Assembly: GCF_947498805.1 (NCBI RefSeq)
Contig: NZ_CANMLT010000002.1
Coordinates: 186,001 to 250,000 of the forward strand
Source: an uncultured Tenacibaculum sp.
Lineage (GTDB): Bacteria; Bacteroidota; Bacteroidia; Flavobacteriales; Flavobacteriaceae
Direction: 5' to 3'
DNA length: 64,000 nucleotides
The translations under genes were made by a program, and so were the position numbers. The notes below the pieces were generated by a model. The model saw only the letters and a list, made by a program, of their open reading frames with translations, had not been told where the DNA came from and did not search any database. Below, one piece after another: positions 48,813 through 62,511 of the stretch (within the stretch, counting starts at the first letter, position 1; the number at the start of each line of letters is the position of its first letter).

Positions 48813-51020
48813 TTAAAAATTAACTGTTACACTACCCTTTAAGAAAAATGGTGTACCAGGTGTAAAGTGAATTTCTTCAGTACTATTTGCTTCTCCTGGT
48901 AAACGAGATTCTGTAGCAAATTGTGTTTCATTCCAGTCAATATCAAAAAGGTTTTGAATCTGTAATCCAAAAGTTACGTTCTTCAACGAATATCCTAGAT
49001 TAAGATCTGTTACTGTGTAACCTTCAGCAATAATAGAATTGTCTTCATTTGCTGGTCTGTCTCCGATATGTCTTAATTGCATACCTCCATAAAAACCTAA
49101 CTCGCTTTTATATGTTATTCCGCTAGATAACGTAAAGTCTGGAGCTAACGGGATATAATCTTGTCCAGATGCTTCTTCTGATGCTCTCGCATGTGCATAA
49201 TTAGCATCTAAGTTAAAATACAATTGGTGTATTGGTTCATATCTTAAGCTAAAATCTATTCCTTGACGTTTGGTTTTTCCACTTGGTTCTACAATACCTG
49301 CATCTCCTACATAGACAAACTCTTGTTCTAAAAACAAATACCAATATGCTGTATTGATTAATAACTTAGGCATTGGTTTCCACATAAAACCAGCATCAAA
49401 TCCATACGAAGCAGGTAGTATTTCCTTACCATTTTGAGCTACCACTACTCTAGTATCATTTGAATGAAATCCTTTACCTGTTTTTATATAAAACTGTAAA
49501 TCTTCATTATAGTTATAAAACATATTTAATTTTGGACTTACAATACTCGCTGTTTGCGACTGAGTTTGATAATTAGTTTGTAAATTATTATTGTATTCAA
49601 AATTGAAATAATCAAGTCGGATTGCTGGATTTATCGTAAACTTTCCAAAGTTAAAATTAGCACTTGCGTAAGCACCAAAATTGGTTTCATTAATATCACC
49701 AAATTGAATTTGGTTTAACGTTTGCCTTCTATTTAAAGTATGAGATAACTCATTATTAGAGCTTTGATCGTTTCTTAAGCTTATTCCAGCAGTAAAATTG
49801 GCGTCTATATCTACTAAATCTTGTGTGTATTCACTATTAAACCCAAAGATATTACGCGATTCTTTTTGCTTAATTTGATCTCCATTAACAGGATCGCCTA
49901 AAAAGAAGGTAAAATTAGAGAACAATTCAAAATGGTACTTATTATAATATACTTTGTTTTTAATAGATGAGTTTTCAGAAAGGATTTTATCATAGGTTAA
50001 CAAGAAGTTAGAGCGACTTGTTTTCCCACCTTCTGTATCATCTATGGCACCAAAACGTGTTATTGATCCATTGTTTACAGCTCGTTGTGGTATTTGACCT
50101 GAGGCATCCCATTTACTCGTAAAATGAGATAGCGTCACTCCTACTTTATCAGAATCAGATACATTGGCTGTATATTTTCCAAAAATATTTAGCCTATTAA
50201 AGCTCTGTGGACTCTCAAAATACCCATCTGTAAGAATATATTCTGAAGCTATATAAGCACTTTGTTTATTATTATTTATTAAGTTGAACATTCCTAACAA
50301 ACGTTTCGTATCAAATTGTCCCACTTCTAGCTTAACAAGATTAGATTTTAACCTGTTTTTTGTCTTGAAATTAACATATCCTGCTGTATTAAAGTTTCCT
50401 TTATCGGCATAATATGCTCCTTTACCAAAATCTATCTTATCTACGGTTTCTGGAATTACAAAATGTAAATCTGCATATCCTTGTCCATGGGCATGAGAAA
50501 CCATATTAACTGGCATTCCATCGGCTGATATTGTAATGTCAGTTCCATGATCTATATCAAAACCTCGTAAGAAAATTTGTTCTGCTTTTCCTCCTCCTGC
50601 ATGTTGACCAATAAATAATCCTGGAACTTTTTGTAAAATTTCTTGCGAAGAATTTACTGGGCTAGTTTGAATATCAACTGCTGTAATTACATTTAAAGCA
50701 TTCAATTTTTTGCCAATGGTTATCTCATCTAAAGAAACCATGTTTTCTTCTAAAATTATATTGATTGGCTCAAAGTTTTTTACAACAATTTTTGTTTTTT
50801 TATAATTGATATGAGTTACTACTAAAGTATCTCCAACAGTTACGTGATGTAATACAAAGGCTCCTCTTTGATTACTATGTGTATGATGCTTATCATTGGT
50901 ATTTAAAATATGTGCTTCTATAACAGGAATATCATCCTGAGTGGTTATTTTCCCTTTAAGGGTCTGTGCTATGAATTGTTGTGATATTAAAAAACTACAA
51001 AACATTATTAGCTTTTTCAT
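48813..51020 (-). CDS. TonB-dependent receptor, probably for a metal
   Basis: A 735-residue receptor: signal peptide (SQQFIAQ), a carboxypeptidase-D-like N-terminal domain (about 20-95), a TonB-box-like stretch, a plug (QEILQKVPGLFIGQHAGGGKAEQIFLRGFDIDHGTD), and a barrel ending TPFFLKGSVTVNF. The N-terminal half is histidine-rich (DKHHTHSNQRG, VSHAHGQGYADLHF), as in zinc- or copper-linked receptors. It lies 118 bp downstream of the MerC-like gene, whose promoter has a Fur/Zur-type palindrome. I therefore infer metal (zinc most likely) uptake rather than siderophore import. Confidence 0.87.
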   Translation of the reverse strand: MKKLIMFCSFLISQQFIAQTLKGKITTQDDIPVIEAHILNTNDKHHTHSNQRGAFVLHHVTVGDTLVVTHINYKKTKIVVKNFEPINIILEENMVSLDEITIGKKLNALNVITAVDIQTSPVNSSQEILQKVPGLFIGQHAGGGKAEQIFLRGFDIDHGTDITISADGMPVNMVSHAHGQGYADLHFVIPETVDKIDFGKGAYYADKGNFNTAGYVNFKTKNRLKSNLVKLEVGQFDTKRLLGMFNLINNNKQSAYIASEYILTDGYFESPQSFNRLNIFGKYTANVSDSDKVGVTLSHFTSKWDASGQIPQRAVNNGSITRFGAIDDTEGGKTSRSNFLLTYDKILSENSSIKNKVYYNKYHFELFSNFTFFLGDPVNGDQIKQKESRNIFGFNSEYTQDLVDIDANFTAGISLRNDQSSNNELSHTLNRRQTLNQIQFGDINETNFGAYASANFNFGKFTINPAIRLDYFNFEYNNNLQTNYQTQSQTASIVSPKLNMFYNYNEDLQFYIKTGKGFHSNDTRVVVAQNGKEILPASYGFDAGFMWKPMPKLLINTAYWYLFLEQEFVYVGDAGIVEPSGKTKRQGIDFSLRYEPIHQLYFNLDANYAHARASEEASGQDYIPLAPDFTLSSGITYKSELGFYGGMQLRHIGDRPANEDNSIIAEGYTVTDLNLGYSLKNVTFGLQIQNLFDIDWNETQFATESRLPGEANSTEEIHFTPGTPFFLKGSVTVNF

Positions 51021-51138: not shown

Positions 51139-51510
51139 TCAATGCTGCTTAGATATTCTCCAGTTAAAATAATGCGCCATTGAAATTAATGAAGCTCCTA
51201 ATACTGTATTACCAACCTCCCATAGCACAGTAAACTCGAACCTTCCTATTCCAATAAATGTAAAACCAATTAGAGCAAAAATTAATGGCTTTATTTTATG
51301 ATGATTTTTCTGATAACTCGGCCATAGAGACATAAAAACAAATATTACTCCGATAGCAATAAAGGTCCATTCTATATAAGGATTTTCCAAAAAGTGTAAG
51401 CTACTCAGCGAAGAGAATGATACTATTATAGGAATGGCCGCACAGTGGATTGCGCAAACAATAGAGCTCGTTAATGCTATGATATCTATGGTATTGTTTC
51501 TTATTTTCAT
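51139..51510 (-). CDS. MerC domain membrane protein
   Basis: A 123-residue membrane protein with four predicted helices. It has the MerC-type metal site SSIVCAIHCAAIPI in the first helix and a HHK loop, and ends in a His-containing tail. MerC proteins move Hg(II) in mercury operons, but no merA, merR or merP is present here. In Bacteroidota such proteins often accompany Zur-controlled TonB receptors. A role in metal (zinc) transfer across the inner membrane is the best inference. First gene of a two-gene operon, 27 bp after the palindrome. Confidence 0.83.
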   Translation of the reverse strand: MKIRNNTIDIIALTSSIVCAIHCAAIPIIVSFSSLSSLHFLENPYIEWTFIAIGVIFVFMSLWPSYQKNHHKIKPLIFALIGFTFIGIGRFEFTVLWEVGNTVLGASLISMAHYFNWRISKQH

Positions 51511-51536: not shown

Positions 51537-51565
51537 TGCAACTAAGTTGCAATAATACAAATATA
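51537..51565 (-). promoter_or_regulatory. promoter with Fur/Zur-type palindrome before the MerC-TonB operon
   Basis: On the minus strand a flavobacterial -7 element TATATTTG (51565-51558) is followed six bases later by the perfect palindrome TGCAAC-TTA-GTTGCA (51551-51537), where the transcript should begin. The same palindrome occurs twice before the gene at 58174. Its size, symmetry and placement on a promoter of metal-transport genes suggest a Fur-family repressor, most likely Zur. Confidence 0.65.
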
Positions 51566-57810: not shown

Positions 57811-58173
57811 TTTATTAGTATTTAAGATTGTTATTATTTGAATTCAGATTCAAATATGTGCTGCTTTTAGAGTATTTTAAATTACATTCCTTTGAATCGT
57901 CGTTTAAGGTTTTTGAATTGTAATTTTAATTGGTAATGCACATTTTTTTAACAAGTTGTGGTTATAAATGGTCTTAAAAGGTGAAGCTTTTTATTAGAAT
58001 AAATGGGACTATGCTATAATTAACATTTTATTAAACGCAACTATGTTGCAATAATGAAATAAACTTATATATTTGCAACTAGGTTGCATTAGCGTGATTT
58101 GATATTAATTAGATTTAAATGTTAAAATTGCTCTAGCATCGCATAAACCGACTTAATAATATATAACCACAAA
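57811..58173. other. divergent intergenic region with two operator palindromes
   Basis: About 360 bp between the divergent ABA4-like and NTF2-like genes with no ORF. Its only clear content is the pair of Fur/Zur-type palindromes and a promoter near 58036-58088, described separately. The first 200 bp next to the ABA4-like gene show nothing distinctive. Confidence 0.6.
58036..58088 (+). promoter_or_regulatory. promoter with two Fur/Zur-type palindromes
   Basis: GCAAC-TAT-GTTGC (58037-58049) and TGCAAC-TAG-GTTGCA (58074-58088), centred 38 bp apart. The second overlaps a -7 element TATATTTG (58068-58075). The first covers the place of the -33 element. Blocking both promoter elements is classic repression. 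The palindrome is the same as the one before the MerC-TonB operon. Confidence 0.65.
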
Positions 58174-58653
58174 ATGATGATTACAAAAGCACAAGTATTA
58201 GAAGCTCAAGAAAATTGGGGCAACGGGGTAGTTAAAATAGGTTCACTAAAAGAGAATTTAGTTGAATGTGAAGCCTATACCAATAGTTTTCTTGACGAGC
58301 GTTATAATTTCGGGCAGAGTACGGTTTTGTTTAAACCAACTAAATGTGAACTAGAGCAATTTAGACCTACAAAAGCAGAAGCTCTTTCTTACTTTATAGC
58401 AGGAGAAAATAGAACTTGCGAAGAAGACAAAGGTTTTGCTATACAACCATGGACAAAAGTACGCTTTGAAAATACAGGCTTTATTCTAGAAGAAGATAGA
58501 GCTATTGCCATGGGTAATTACTTTTTTACAGACTTAGAAGGAAACGAAGCTAAAGTTGAATACACTTTTGGATACAAACTTGTTGATAACCAATTAAAAA
58601 TCGATGTACACCATTCATCATTTCCGTATACAAATCCAGACATTGTGGCTTAA
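58174..58653 (+). CDS. NTF2/SnoaL-like protein, often mislabelled phosphoribosyl-AMP cyclohydrolase
   Basis: A 159-residue protein with the pattern TKAQVLEAQENWGNGVVKIG...FRPTKAEALSYFIAGE...GFAIQPWTKVRFENTGFILEEDRAIAMGNYFFTDLEGNEAKVEYTFGYKLVDNQLKIDVHHSSFPY, an NTF2-like fold. Relatives are often annotated as phosphoribosyl-AMP cyclohydrolase in databases (from memory), though no HisI motif is present. No signal peptide. First gene of the palindrome-controlled operon, overlapping the next gene by one base (TAATG). Function unknown; a link to metal limitation is inferred from the operator. Confidence 0.72.
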   Translation: MMITKAQVLEAQENWGNGVVKIGSLKENLVECEAYTNSFLDERYNFGQSTVLFKPTKCELEQFRPTKAEALSYFIAGENRTCEEDKGFAIQPWTKVRFENTGFILEEDRAIAMGNYFFTDLEGNEAKVEYTFGYKLVDNQLKIDVHHSSFPYTNPDIVA

Positions 58654-59150
58654 TGTATTCAGTACTTTATCTTCTATGTCCAACCGATTGTTTAGAAACC
58701 CGTGTTAATGACGCTTTTAAACATCAAAACTACTTTTATACGTCACTTGGGAATTCATTGAGCCTAGATGATAAAACAGTAGAAAGCTTAAAAGCGTTGA
58801 TGCTTGAACATAGCATCAGGGAGATTAGTGTTGTCCTTTCCAATGATAATCCAATATTTTTGGATGCATTGGAAGGGCAATTTTTTTATAAAATAAACGG
58901 TTTAAATCGGTTTTACAAGAAAATAGGTAGACAACGAAGACATTCTGAATTAATTTGGAATGGTGACAATCGTAGAGATGCGATACTTTCATATTTTCTT
59001 AACAATAAAATAAAAGAGCTTCAACTTAGATTGGCTAACTTTCCCTTTCATTCAGTAAAGATTAACGGGAAAATATATGATCGATTCGAAAATAGTTTTA
59101 AAAACGTGTATTCGAATCTGACTTGTTTAGAGAAACATTCCTTAAACTAA
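58653..59150 (+). CDS. hypothetical protein in the palindrome-controlled operon
   Basis: A 165-residue protein of unknown family. It has MYSVLYLLCPTDCLETRVNDAF at the start, a SVVLSNDNPIFLDALEGQFF stretch, and a basic, aromatic C-terminal half (RFYKKIGRQRRHSELIWNGDNRRDAILSYFLNNK). The early CPTDC pair could bind metal. No signal peptide or membrane helix. Its start overlaps the NTF2-like gene by one base and its stop is 2 bp before the PhoX gene, so it is a true operon member. Confidence 0.65.
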   Translation: MYSVLYLLCPTDCLETRVNDAFKHQNYFYTSLGNSLSLDDKTVESLKALMLEHSIREISVVLSNDNPIFLDALEGQFFYKINGLNRFYKKIGRQRRHSELIWNGDNRRDAILSYFLNNKIKELQLRLANFPFHSVKINGKIYDRFENSFKNVYSNLTCLEKHSLN

Positions 59151-59152
59151 AT

Positions 59153-60832
59153 ATGGAATATAACAGAAGAAAATTCATTTCCTTTTTAGGAAAAGCAAGC
59201 GTAGGAATTTTAACTATTCCTCCTTTTTTAACAAGCTGTGGAAGTACTACTACTCCACTTATTTCAGATAACATTTCAAAAAAAGCTTTAGAACGATTAA
59301 GAAAAGTTACGTTAAAGAATTTGATTCCTTCAAACAAAGATGATTTAATTCTTACAGAAGGCTTAGACTATCATGTAATTTTAAAATGGGGAGATCAAAT
59401 TAGTGATACAGATACTTTTGGTTTTAATAATGATTTTACCTGCTTTATTCCTTTAGATGATAGCAATCCTAAAGACGGTTTGTTATGGGTAAATCATGAA
59501 TATGTAAATCCGTTATTTGTTTCTGATTTTGATTATCGAACCTATAAAAATCCTTTAGAACATAGAACTATTGAGCAAGTAGATAAAGAAATGTATAATG
59601 TTGGAGGAACTATTGTACGAATTAGAGAGGTAAATGGTAGATGGGAAATTGTAAAGAATGATCCTTATAATAGACGGATTACTGCCCAAACTCCAATCCG
59701 ACTCAATTGGGATACTCCAATTAAAGGTAAGAACATTGCTATAGGAACTAATAGTAATTGTTCTGGAGGTATTACACCTTGGAAAACCTTTTTAACCTGC
59801 GAAGAGAATTATGACAATCAATTCGGAGAAACGGTTTATAATAAAAATAACGAACCTATACACAAACCTAGTAATTATCATTGGGAGCATTTTTACAATT
59901 ATCCTCCAGAACATTATGGTTGGGTAGTAGAAATAGATCCAAAAGATGGAAGCGCCCAAAAACATATTGCTTTAGGAAGGTTTGCTCATGAATGCTGTAC
60001 TTTATATGAATTAGAAGACAAACGTGTTGTTGCTTATACAGGAGATGATAGAAATAGTGAACATTTGTACAAATTTATTTCTTCTAAACCACAATCATTA
60101 AAAGAAGGTACCTTATATGTAGCGGATACAATTAATGGAAAATGGTTAAGCCTAGACTGGAAAACACAACCTATTTTACAGAAACACTTTATAAATCAAA
60201 CAGAAGTACTTATAAGAGCTAGAGAAGCATCTAAATTACTTGGTGCTACTGAATTGAATCGTCCTGAAGACATTGAAATTGATCCTATTACGGGTAATAT
60301 TTTGGTAACCTTAACCAATAATAAACCCAAAAAAGATTATCATGGATCTATTTTAAAAATTGAAGAAGAGAACGGTCAATTTGACGCTTTAACTTTTAAA
60401 GCTTCTACTTATTTAGCAGGTGGTGAAGAGAACGGATTTTCTTGCCCAGATAATTTAGCTTTTGATTTATCTGGAAACCTTTGGATGACGTCAGATATGT
60501 CTGGAAGTTCTATGAACAATCCTAACAAACCTTATATACCTTTTAAAAACAATAGTTTGTTCGTGATACCAAGATATGGAAAGGATGCTGGAAAAGTAAT
60601 TCGAGTAGCTTCTGCACCTACAGATGCTGAGCTTACTGGCCCTTGGTTTTCTCCAGATGGAAAAACTTTATTCCTTAGTGTTCAACACCCAGGAGAACAA
60701 ACCAGTGACCTAAAAAATCCTACCAGCTCTTGGCCCTTTGATACCGATGGAATTCCAAAATCTGCCGTTGTAGCTGTACAAGGAGATTTAATTGAAAAAC
60801 TAAATAATATGAGTAAATTAGCATCGTTATAA
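59153..60832 (+). CDS. PhoX-family phosphatase
   Basis: A DUF839/PhoX-type beta-propeller protein of 559 residues from ATG 59153. The track's TTG at 59123 overlaps the upstream gene and pushes the signal inward. A Tat-like signal NRRKFISFLGKASVG ends at a possible lipobox LTSC|G. Cofactor motifs follow: CSGGITPWKTFLTCEENYDNQFGE, GWVVEIDPKDG, HECCTLYELEDKRVVAYTGDD, EDIEIDPITGNILVTLTNN and FSPDGKTLFLSVQHPGEQTSD. PhoX enzymes are Ca/Fe alkaline phosphatases that do not need zinc. Followed by split 5'-nucleotidase genes. Confidence 0.88.
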   Translation: MEYNRRKFISFLGKASVGILTIPPFLTSCGSTTTPLISDNISKKALERLRKVTLKNLIPSNKDDLILTEGLDYHVILKWGDQISDTDTFGFNNDFTCFIPLDDSNPKDGLLWVNHEYVNPLFVSDFDYRTYKNPLEHRTIEQVDKEMYNVGGTIVRIREVNGRWEIVKNDPYNRRITAQTPIRLNWDTPIKGKNIAIGTNSNCSGGITPWKTFLTCEENYDNQFGETVYNKNNEPIHKPSNYHWEHFYNYPPEHYGWVVEIDPKDGSAQKHIALGRFAHECCTLYELEDKRVVAYTGDDRNSEHLYKFISSKPQSLKEGTLYVADTINGKWLSLDWKTQPILQKHFINQTEVLIRAREASKLLGATELNRPEDIEIDPITGNILVTLTNNKPKKDYHGSILKIEEENGQFDALTFKASTYLAGGEENGFSCPDNLAFDLSGNLWMTSDMSGSSMNNPNKPYIPFKNNSLFVIPRYGKDAGKVIRVASAPTDAELTGPWFSPDGKTLFLSVQHPGEQTSDLKNPTSSWPFDTDGIPKSAVVAVQGDLIEKLNNMSKLASL

Positions 60833-60853: not shown

Positions 60854-61600
60854 ATGAAATTTTCATACGTACTTTGCTTATTGCTGGCAGTAGTTTCTTG
60901 TAAAAAAGCACCAAATCAACTTGAAAAAATAACAGCCAAAACAATCACTATAGATAGTACCTTGGCTTCATCTAATAAAATAGATAGTGTTATTACTCCT
61001 TATAAAGAAAAACTAGAAGTAGAAATGCAAGAAATATTGACATATGCTCCAAAAGATTTTCTTAAAAATGAAGTACCAGGACAAAGTTCTTTAGGGAATT
61101 TAATGGCAGATATATGCTTTGACTTAACCAATCCTCTCTATAAAGAGAAAACAGGTAACTCTATTGATTTTGTACTTTTTAATCATGGAGGCATACGAGC
61201 TACTATTCCACGAGGAAAAGTTACAGTAGAACGAGCATTTAAATTGATGCCCTTTGAAAATGAATTTGTAGTTGTAACACTTACAGGTGAAAAAATAAAC
61301 GAACTAGTTCAATTTTTTATTGACCATAAAAGAGCACATCCTCTTTCTAAGAATGTAGAGTTACAAATTACTGGTAAACAGTATACCTTAAAAATTAATG
61401 GTGAAGATTTTGATAAAAACAAATCTTACAACGTACTTACTTCCGACTATTTACAGACTGGAGGAGATAATATGTTGTTTTTCAAAAACCCTAAAGAATT
61501 GGTTAAGTTAGACTATAAAATTAGAGATGCACTAATTGATCATTTAAAAAAAACAGATACTCTACAAGCAAGCGTTGATAACCGTGTAATTATTAAGTAA
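60854..61600 (+). CDS. 5'-nucleotidase C-terminal domain as a separate lipoprotein
   Basis: A 248-residue lipoprotein (lipobox LAVVSC|KKA) consisting only of the substrate-binding C-terminal domain of UshA-type 5'-nucleotidases. It has LGNLMADICFDLTN, DFVLFNHGGIRATIPRGKVTVERAFKLMPFENEFVVVTLTG and DYLQTGGDNMLFF. The catalytic metal domain is encoded by the next gene, overlapping by one base. The domain order of ordinary single-chain enzymes is thus reversed at gene level. The two products probably assemble on the outer side of a membrane to release phosphate from nucleotides. Confidence 0.87.
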   Translation: MKFSYVLCLLLAVVSCKKAPNQLEKITAKTITIDSTLASSNKIDSVITPYKEKLEVEMQEILTYAPKDFLKNEVPGQSSLGNLMADICFDLTNPLYKEKTGNSIDFVLFNHGGIRATIPRGKVTVERAFKLMPFENEFVVVTLTGEKINELVQFFIDHKRAHPLSKNVELQITGKQYTLKINGEDFDKNKSYNVLTSDYLQTGGDNMLFFKNPKELVKLDYKIRDALIDHLKKTDTLQASVDNRVIIK

Positions 61601-62511
61601 TGAAAAGAAGAAATTTTATAAAGCAAATTGGTGGCGCCTCTGTGTTAGTGGCAGCAGGACTAACATTACCTTCATTCATTGGAAATAACCGACGTCATAT
61701 TACCATATTACACACCAATGATACACATAGTCATATTGAACCTTTTGATGAAAACCACAATAGATACGCTAATAAAGGTGGTGTAGCTAGACGTGCTTCT
61801 TTAATAGACCAAATTAGAAGAGAAAATCCAAATACATTATTGCTTGATGCCGGTGATATTTTCCAAGGTACCCCCTATTTCAATTTTTTTGGAGGAGCAT
61901 TGGAGTTTAAATTAATGAGCATGCTAAAATATGATGTAGCCACTATTGGAAATCATGATTTTGACAACTCTATTGATGGCCTATACAAACAACTACCTAA
62001 TGCCAAATTTGATTTTGTTTCTGCAAACTACGATTTCAAAAATACAGTACTTGATACCCACGTTAAACCATATAAAATTATAGTTAAAGATGGTGTTAAA
62101 ATTGGAATTTTTGGCTTAGGAGTAGAACTTGAAGGCTTGGTAAGTAAAAAGATGTATAAAGAAACTGCATACCTAGACCCTATAGAAATTACTCAAGATA
62201 TTACTACCGAGTTAAAAGATACACAAAAGTGCGATTTAATTATATGTTTATCTCATTTAGGATATTATTATAAGAACAATCCTGATAAAATTTCTGATTT
62301 AAATTTAGCGAAAGCAACAAAAAACATTGACCTAATTATAGGAGGACATACACATACTTTTTTACCAAAACCCACTATTGTAAAAAATATTGAAGGAAAA
62401 AATATGCTAGTTAATCAAGTAGGAGCTTACGGAGTTAACATTGGTAGAGTAGATTTTTATTTTGATAATTTAAACAATAAATCTTCTTCTGGTACTACCA
62501 TTTTAGTTTAA
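61600..62511 (+). CDS. 5'-nucleotidase metallophosphatase domain as a separate protein
   Basis: A 303-residue metallophosphatase with a Tat-like signal (KRRNFIKQIGGASVLVAAG) and all metal motifs of UshA-type 5'-nucleotidases: HTNDTHSHIEPF, LDAGDIFQGTPYF, IGNHDFDNS, LSHLGYYY and GGHTHTFL. It stops where the linker to the C-terminal domain would begin; that domain is the upstream gene. Translational coupling (TAATG) suggests equal amounts. Last gene of the PhoX operon, with no clear terminator after it. Confidence 0.87.
   Translation: MKRRNFIKQIGGASVLVAAGLTLPSFIGNNRRHITILHTNDTHSHIEPFDENHNRYANKGGVARRASLIDQIRRENPNTLLLDAGDIFQGTPYFNFFGGALEFKLMSMLKYDVATIGNHDFDNSIDGLYKQLPNAKFDFVSANYDFKNTVLDTHVKPYKIIVKDGVKIGIFGLGVELEGLVSKKMYKETAYLDPIEITQDITTELKDTQKCDLIICLSHLGYYYKNNPDKISDLNLAKATKNIDLIIGGHTHTFLPKPTIVKNIEGKNMLVNQVGAYGVNIGRVDFYFDNLNNKSSSGTTILV

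Follow-up and report, generated by a model that had tools for sequence, protein, structure and literature searches.

The Boxes and the Two Operons in the Window

The window analysed here, a stretch of 64,000 nucleotides from the genome of an uncultured Tenacibaculum species, contains three copies of the palindrome TGCAAC-N3-GTTGCA, which we will refer to as the box. Two are exact (TGCAACTAAGTTGCA, 51537–51551; TGCAACTAGGTTGCA, 58074–58088) and the third has one edge change (CGCAACTATGTTGCA, 58036–58050); the positions given for all three in the original prediction are thereby confirmed. The box at 51537 is located in the promoter of an operon on the reverse strand, comprised of genes for a MerC-family membrane protein (51139–51510; PF03203, E 2.3e-22) and a TonB-dependent receptor with a CarboxypepD_reg-like N-terminus (48813–51020). 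This receptor had been described as His-rich, which is an overstatement, as its His content is 2.7% with a single HHTH cluster. The other two boxes are found before an operon on the forward strand, whose first gene (58174–58653) had been taken for an NTF2 protein and encodes instead a COG4337-type iota-carbonic anhydrase (iota-CA). It is followed by the genes for an unannotated protein of 165 aa, referred to below as D165 (58653–59150), a PhoX-family alkaline phosphatase (59153–60832), a 5'-nucleotidase C-terminal domain protein (60854–61600), and a calcineurin-like phosphoesterase with a Tat-like signal (61600–62511). The last two constitute the halves of a UshA-like 5'-nucleotidase, which is encoded at 60854–62511 by two adjacent genes with the C-terminal domain first and the metallophosphoesterase second; a split pair of this kind is also present beside zur in the locus L064.

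The placement of the boxes relative to the promoters differs among the three copies. It had been stated that each copy overlaps or abuts a -7 element, but an overlap exists only for the box at 58074, which shares TG with the -7 element TATATTTG of the carbonic anhydrase-PhoX operon (58068–58075, forward strand). In the merC-TonB promoter, 6 bp separate the -7 element TATATTTG (51558–51565, reverse strand) from the box at 51537, which is downstream of it. The box at 58036, about 17 bp upstream of its -7 element and 38 bp from the box at 58074, covers a TTG (58046–58048, forward strand) that is exactly 19 bp before TATATTTG and is the putative -33 element. Among 310 oriented boxes from related loci, which overlap and are not all independent, a TAnnTTTG element starts at -6 relative to the box in 52 cases, as it does for the box at 58074. 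In 40 cases it starts at +32 or +33. All box pairs that were seen are spaced by either 38 bp (29 pairs) or 39 bp (11 pairs). This arrangement would suit repression by promoter occlusion.

In the whole genome, the exact box occurs only at the two sites within the window, which precede the merC-TonB and carbonic anhydrase-PhoX operons, respectively, while a first-order Markov model predicts 0.0022 such sites in 64 kb and 0.14 in the genome of 4.0 Mb. The reversed control pattern gave no exact match. With up to one mismatch, the box was found at 11 places versus three for the reversed control. These 11 include the three in the window, two within one intergenic region (C4:390277 and C4:390315) and one at C3:59178; the remaining five, which fall at the ends of genes or within simple repeats of the TTGCAACA type, were set aside as chance matches. 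Words resembling TTGCAACA are densely repeated around small genes in the region G000:C4:19753–32200 (L006–L008), which is possibly a mobile element and is a source of false palindrome matches.

The Fur-Family Regulator

A profile search identified two Fur-domain genes in the genome. The gene of interest here encodes a protein of 126 aa (G000:C4:389886–390263, outside the window; PF01475, 37 bits vs. a cutoff of 23.1) and is preceded by the two C4 boxes, which are situated in the promoter that it shares with a divergent merC-folE operon. A Fur/PerR-like gene is present separately (L012). When the best 30 orthologous loci of this regulator from 201 genomes of the family were examined, a box with no more than two mismatches was found just upstream of the regulator gene in all 30, mostly as a pair, and the boxes of these pairs are 38–39 bp apart, which is the spacing seen at 58036/58074. 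In 18 orthologues, the four cysteines of a structural Cys4 site (C87, C90, C121, and C124) as well as H82 and H84 are invariant, H78 and D80 are nearly so, and C70, which aligns with a Cys of the Streptomyces coelicolor Zur, is retained in 16; both the structural site and the regulatory Cys/His residues expected of a Zur are represented.

In a search of the PDB with the profile of this regulator, the first matches were 3mwm and 7vo0, one Fur (9ire) was third, and 2o03 and 4mtd also scored high; S. coelicolor Zur was the top match, and the Zur proteins of Mycobacterium tuberculosis (FurB/Zur) and Escherichia coli were also among the best. The NCBIfam models gave only weak scores, viz. 24.3 bits for Fur and 23.7 bits for the E. 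coli-type Zur equivalog, and as the cutoff of the latter is 167 bits, the regulator is not an orthologue of the E. coli-type Zur. The palindrome also occurs in L091 and L095 between a divergent TonB receptor and another Fur-family paralogue (about 30–33% identical), which indicates that this operator is not confined to one orthologous group of Fur proteins. The Zur encoded beside hisI and a COG0523 gene in L074 is a variant whose metal-site loop is altered.

The Iota-Carbonic Anhydrase, D165, and PhoX

The assignment of the first gene of the operon is based upon its matches to solved members of the family (7c5x, E 6.2e-87; 7c5v, E 2.5e-25) and upon the invariant HHSS motif (H146, H147, S148, and S149). 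It scored 106 bits against the NCBIfam equivalog NF047901, whose cutoff is 350 bits and whose 205 positions exceed the length of this protein. The nearest named genes are from Tenacibaculum (82–83% identity). The COG4337 enzymes, which work without a metal, were described from Anabaena and Bigelowiella (PMC8132391; 7c5v and 7c5x), and the window protein belongs to the same family, shares the HHSS motif and, as in other bacteria, is comprised of a single domain. It differs in being tied to a zinc-type regulator and, from most of the bacterial members in that study, in showing no obvious N-terminal signal peptide. The genome also retains a beta-carbonic anhydrase (beta-CA). In a comparison of 25 genomes of the family that covered the beta class, the zinc beta-CA was present in seven of the eight genomes with a box-linked iota-CA and in three of the 17 others (p 0.002), the genomes with a box-less iota-CA being mostly incomplete MAGs. 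Such a distribution is expected if the iota-CA is an emergency substitute where it is linked to a box and the main enzyme in the other genomes.

D165 yielded noise matches alone in Pfam, and an assignment to a Pfam family was rejected. However, for each of two AlphaFold2 models (pLDDT 77–78, pTM 0.74), all 50 of the PDB matches listed were beta-CAs (prob 1.00, TM about 0.5–0.7), and D165 is predicted to be a protein of the beta-CA fold without the His-x-x-Cys zinc ligands. Its relationship to the beta-CAs rests on the predicted fold, as hhalign comparisons of D165 with one beta-CA and with a beta-CA profile were not significant (profile probability 0.2%). Among 27 homologues, Cys9, the first residue of the Cys...His-x-x-Cys ligand set, and Asp12 are invariant and a GN turn is nearly so, whereas the other zinc ligands are missing: the residues equivalent to His-x-x-Cys, an equivalence set by the order of the elements rather than by a computed structure alignment, are Asn, Asp, or Ser followed mostly by Lys, Arg, or Gln, with His at the Cys-equivalent position in two homologues. 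Members of the D165 family (L109, L117, L125, and others) are usually found beside iota-CA in box-controlled operons.

The PhoX protein, whose start was placed at the ATG at 59153 (the ORF list had a TTG at 59123), carries a Tat-like signal and a lipobox. It matches PF05787 with 347 bits (cutoff 24) and the solved Pseudomonas PhoX with an E value of 5e-53, and it shares PF05787 with the latter (PDB 3zwu and 4amf) but stands under a Zur-type box. PhoX uses Fe and Ca, whereas PhoA uses zinc (PMC5454538). A search for PhoA (PF00245) in the genome found none, which rules out that PhoX replaces a resident zinc PhoA.

Conservation in Related Bacteria

The association of the box with iota-CA was examined at 80 iota-CA loci from named genomes of Tenacibaculum, Aquimarina, Kordia, Polaribacter, Flammeovirga, and Splendidivirga and from marine MAGs. 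Within 2.5 kb upstream of these genes, an exact box was present in 23 cases and one with up to one mismatch in 38, whereas 179 other permutations of the half-site gave, before the same 80 genes, at most one exact match and three with up to one mismatch. About half of these loci contain both the box and the partner genes and the rest contain neither (39/2/3/36; Fisher p 1e-16, a value that ignores relatedness). The canonical order, zur divergent from merC-folE-iCA-D165-PhoX-5NT-MPhos, is complete in L125 and nearly so in L121 and L137, and PhoX forms a part of box-controlled merC-folE operons in these three loci and also in L223, which is without an iota-CA. In the window genome, the canonical operon is split and its second half carries a box pair of its own. 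The boxes, their geometry, the gene content, its conservation, and the co-occurrence are all read directly from these sequences.

The box also precedes or adjoins genes for COG0523 chaperones, folE, and hisI in relatives, all of which were identified by reading the sequences; COG0523 GTPase genes follow it directly in L222, L225, L234, and L238, and hisI does so in L074. COG0523 proteins and the paralogues of folE and hisI are Zur-regulated families (PMC2770081). When the window genome was searched for a COG0523 gene of the YciC type, PF02492 gave two weak matches, both in frames whose length was unsuitable, and this candidate was rejected. The genome has three copies of folE, including the Zur-linked one (L013:2259–2924, contig C4); the product of the latter retains the usual zinc-ligand motifs, which counts against a zinc-sparing role. 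Exact boxes that lie inside genes of relatives (e.g., L083, L086, L092, and L101) were treated as chance matches.

A probable fourth target promoter is marked by the one-mismatch box at C3:59178 (L015:5179–5193), which is found before the genes for a TonB receptor and a thioredoxin and adjoins those for MntR and a metal ABC transporter. In L062, zur is adjoined by a homologous receptor-thioredoxin pair whose receptor is 78% identical.

Discussion

The palindrome is very probably the operator of a zinc-sensing, Zur-type repressor of the Fur family belonging to this organism. The proposal of a Fur/Zur-type regulon gains support from the boxes at all 30 regulator promoters, the paired geometry, the zinc-linked targets, and the profile match to Zur. 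The arguments originally put forward were less strong than the conclusion itself, since the receptor is not His-rich and only one of the two operons is a conserved target. It is quite likely that the box controls a zinc-starvation regulon consisting of zur/merC-folE, merC-TonB, and the zinc-sparing operon for iota-CA, D165, PhoX, and the nucleotidase. From these data we infer that zinc is the signal, that the regulator binds DNA and represses, and that the encoded enzymes have the activities named. One dimer of the zinc-bound repressor would occupy each box, and paired boxes 38–39 bp apart, by covering the -33 and -7 elements of a TTG-N19-TAnnTTTG promoter, would block the access of RNA polymerase. 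A drop in zinc would release the repressor from the DNA, and the three operons would be expressed; merC-TonB would then serve in the import of metal across the outer membrane, the metal-free iota-CA would replace the zinc-dependent beta-CA, and PhoX would provide phosphatase activity without zinc.

For the merC-TonB box, a chance match is an alternative explanation. Within 1.5 kb upstream of homologous receptors, no box was found at any of 29 loci, three of which are in genomes with a close Zur orthologue, and the promoter carries a single box rather than a pair; its membership is therefore either lineage-specific or, less likely, due to chance. If the match were accidental, the regulon would be limited to the iota-CA-PhoX operon and zur-merC-folE. 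We regard this as unlikely in view of the low number of exact matches expected per genome, the location of this box 6 bp from a -7 element and before a MerC gene, and the TonB receptors that follow boxes in relatives (L084, L091, and L095). Of the two operons placed under one regulator in the original prediction, the carbonic anhydrase-PhoX operon has proven to be a conserved target, while merC-TonB depends upon one exact box in this genome.

It is also conceivable, although improbable, that the regulator responds to another metal (Fe, Mn, or Co) or to peroxide and that the regulon answers that metal. The nearly equal and weak Fur and Zur scores, the iron requirement of PhoX, and the proximity of the C3 box to the MntR and metal transporter cluster would fit this possibility, but Zur structures top the profile search, the genes targeted in relatives (COG0523 GTPases, hisI, and folE) have links to zinc, a separate Fur/PerR-like gene is available, and the induction of an iron enzyme under iron starvation would make little sense. 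Very little likelihood attaches to the view that the PhoX operon is a phosphate-starvation operon that came to share its site with metal genes by chance or rearrangement. PhoX and a 5'-nucleotidase do make up a typical organic-phosphate kit, but the paired boxes are conserved together with their spacing and PhoX recurs in the box-controlled merC-folE operons of several genomes.

Under the preferred reading of a zinc-starvation regulon, the operon for iota-CA, D165, and PhoX looks like a zinc-sparing module for CO2 and phosphate. More tentatively, and at somewhat less than even likelihood, CO2 hydration under zinc starvation may pass to a zinc-free pair, the metal-free iota-CA and D165, a beta-CA relative that, having lost its zinc site, would either be active without metal or assist the iota-CA, while in streamlined marine relatives the iota-CA may be the sole and constitutive carbonic anhydrase.

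In common with the Zur regulons of Proteobacteria and Bacillus (PMC6103462, PMC8000910, PMC2770081), that proposed here has a Fur-family zinc repressor with a palindromic operator, COG0523 chaperones and folE/hisI paralogues, and an alternative carbonic anhydrase among its targets (in those bacteria the gamma-class cam, or ytiB). It differs in the sequence of the operator and in having as targets a metal-free iota-CA, a beta-CA-fold protein without zinc ligands, and PhoX. Neither Bacteroidetes nor any name in Bacteroid- or Flavobacter- appears in the Zur reviews PMC6103462 and PMC8000910, and the open-licence papers searched described neither a Zur from Bacteroidota nor an iota-CA under Zur control.

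The results may define a testable zinc-control operator for the Bacteroidota, a phylum for which the Zur reviews searched give none, and they point to a family of beta-CA-fold proteins without zinc. The discoverers of the metal-free carbonic anhydrases had suggested that they are of use in metal-poor water, and since in many Bacteroidota the iota-CA gene is wired to a regulator of the zinc type, there would be a physiological reason for such enzymes. In these common marine bacteria, the use of zinc, CO2, and organic phosphate would be joined in a single switch.
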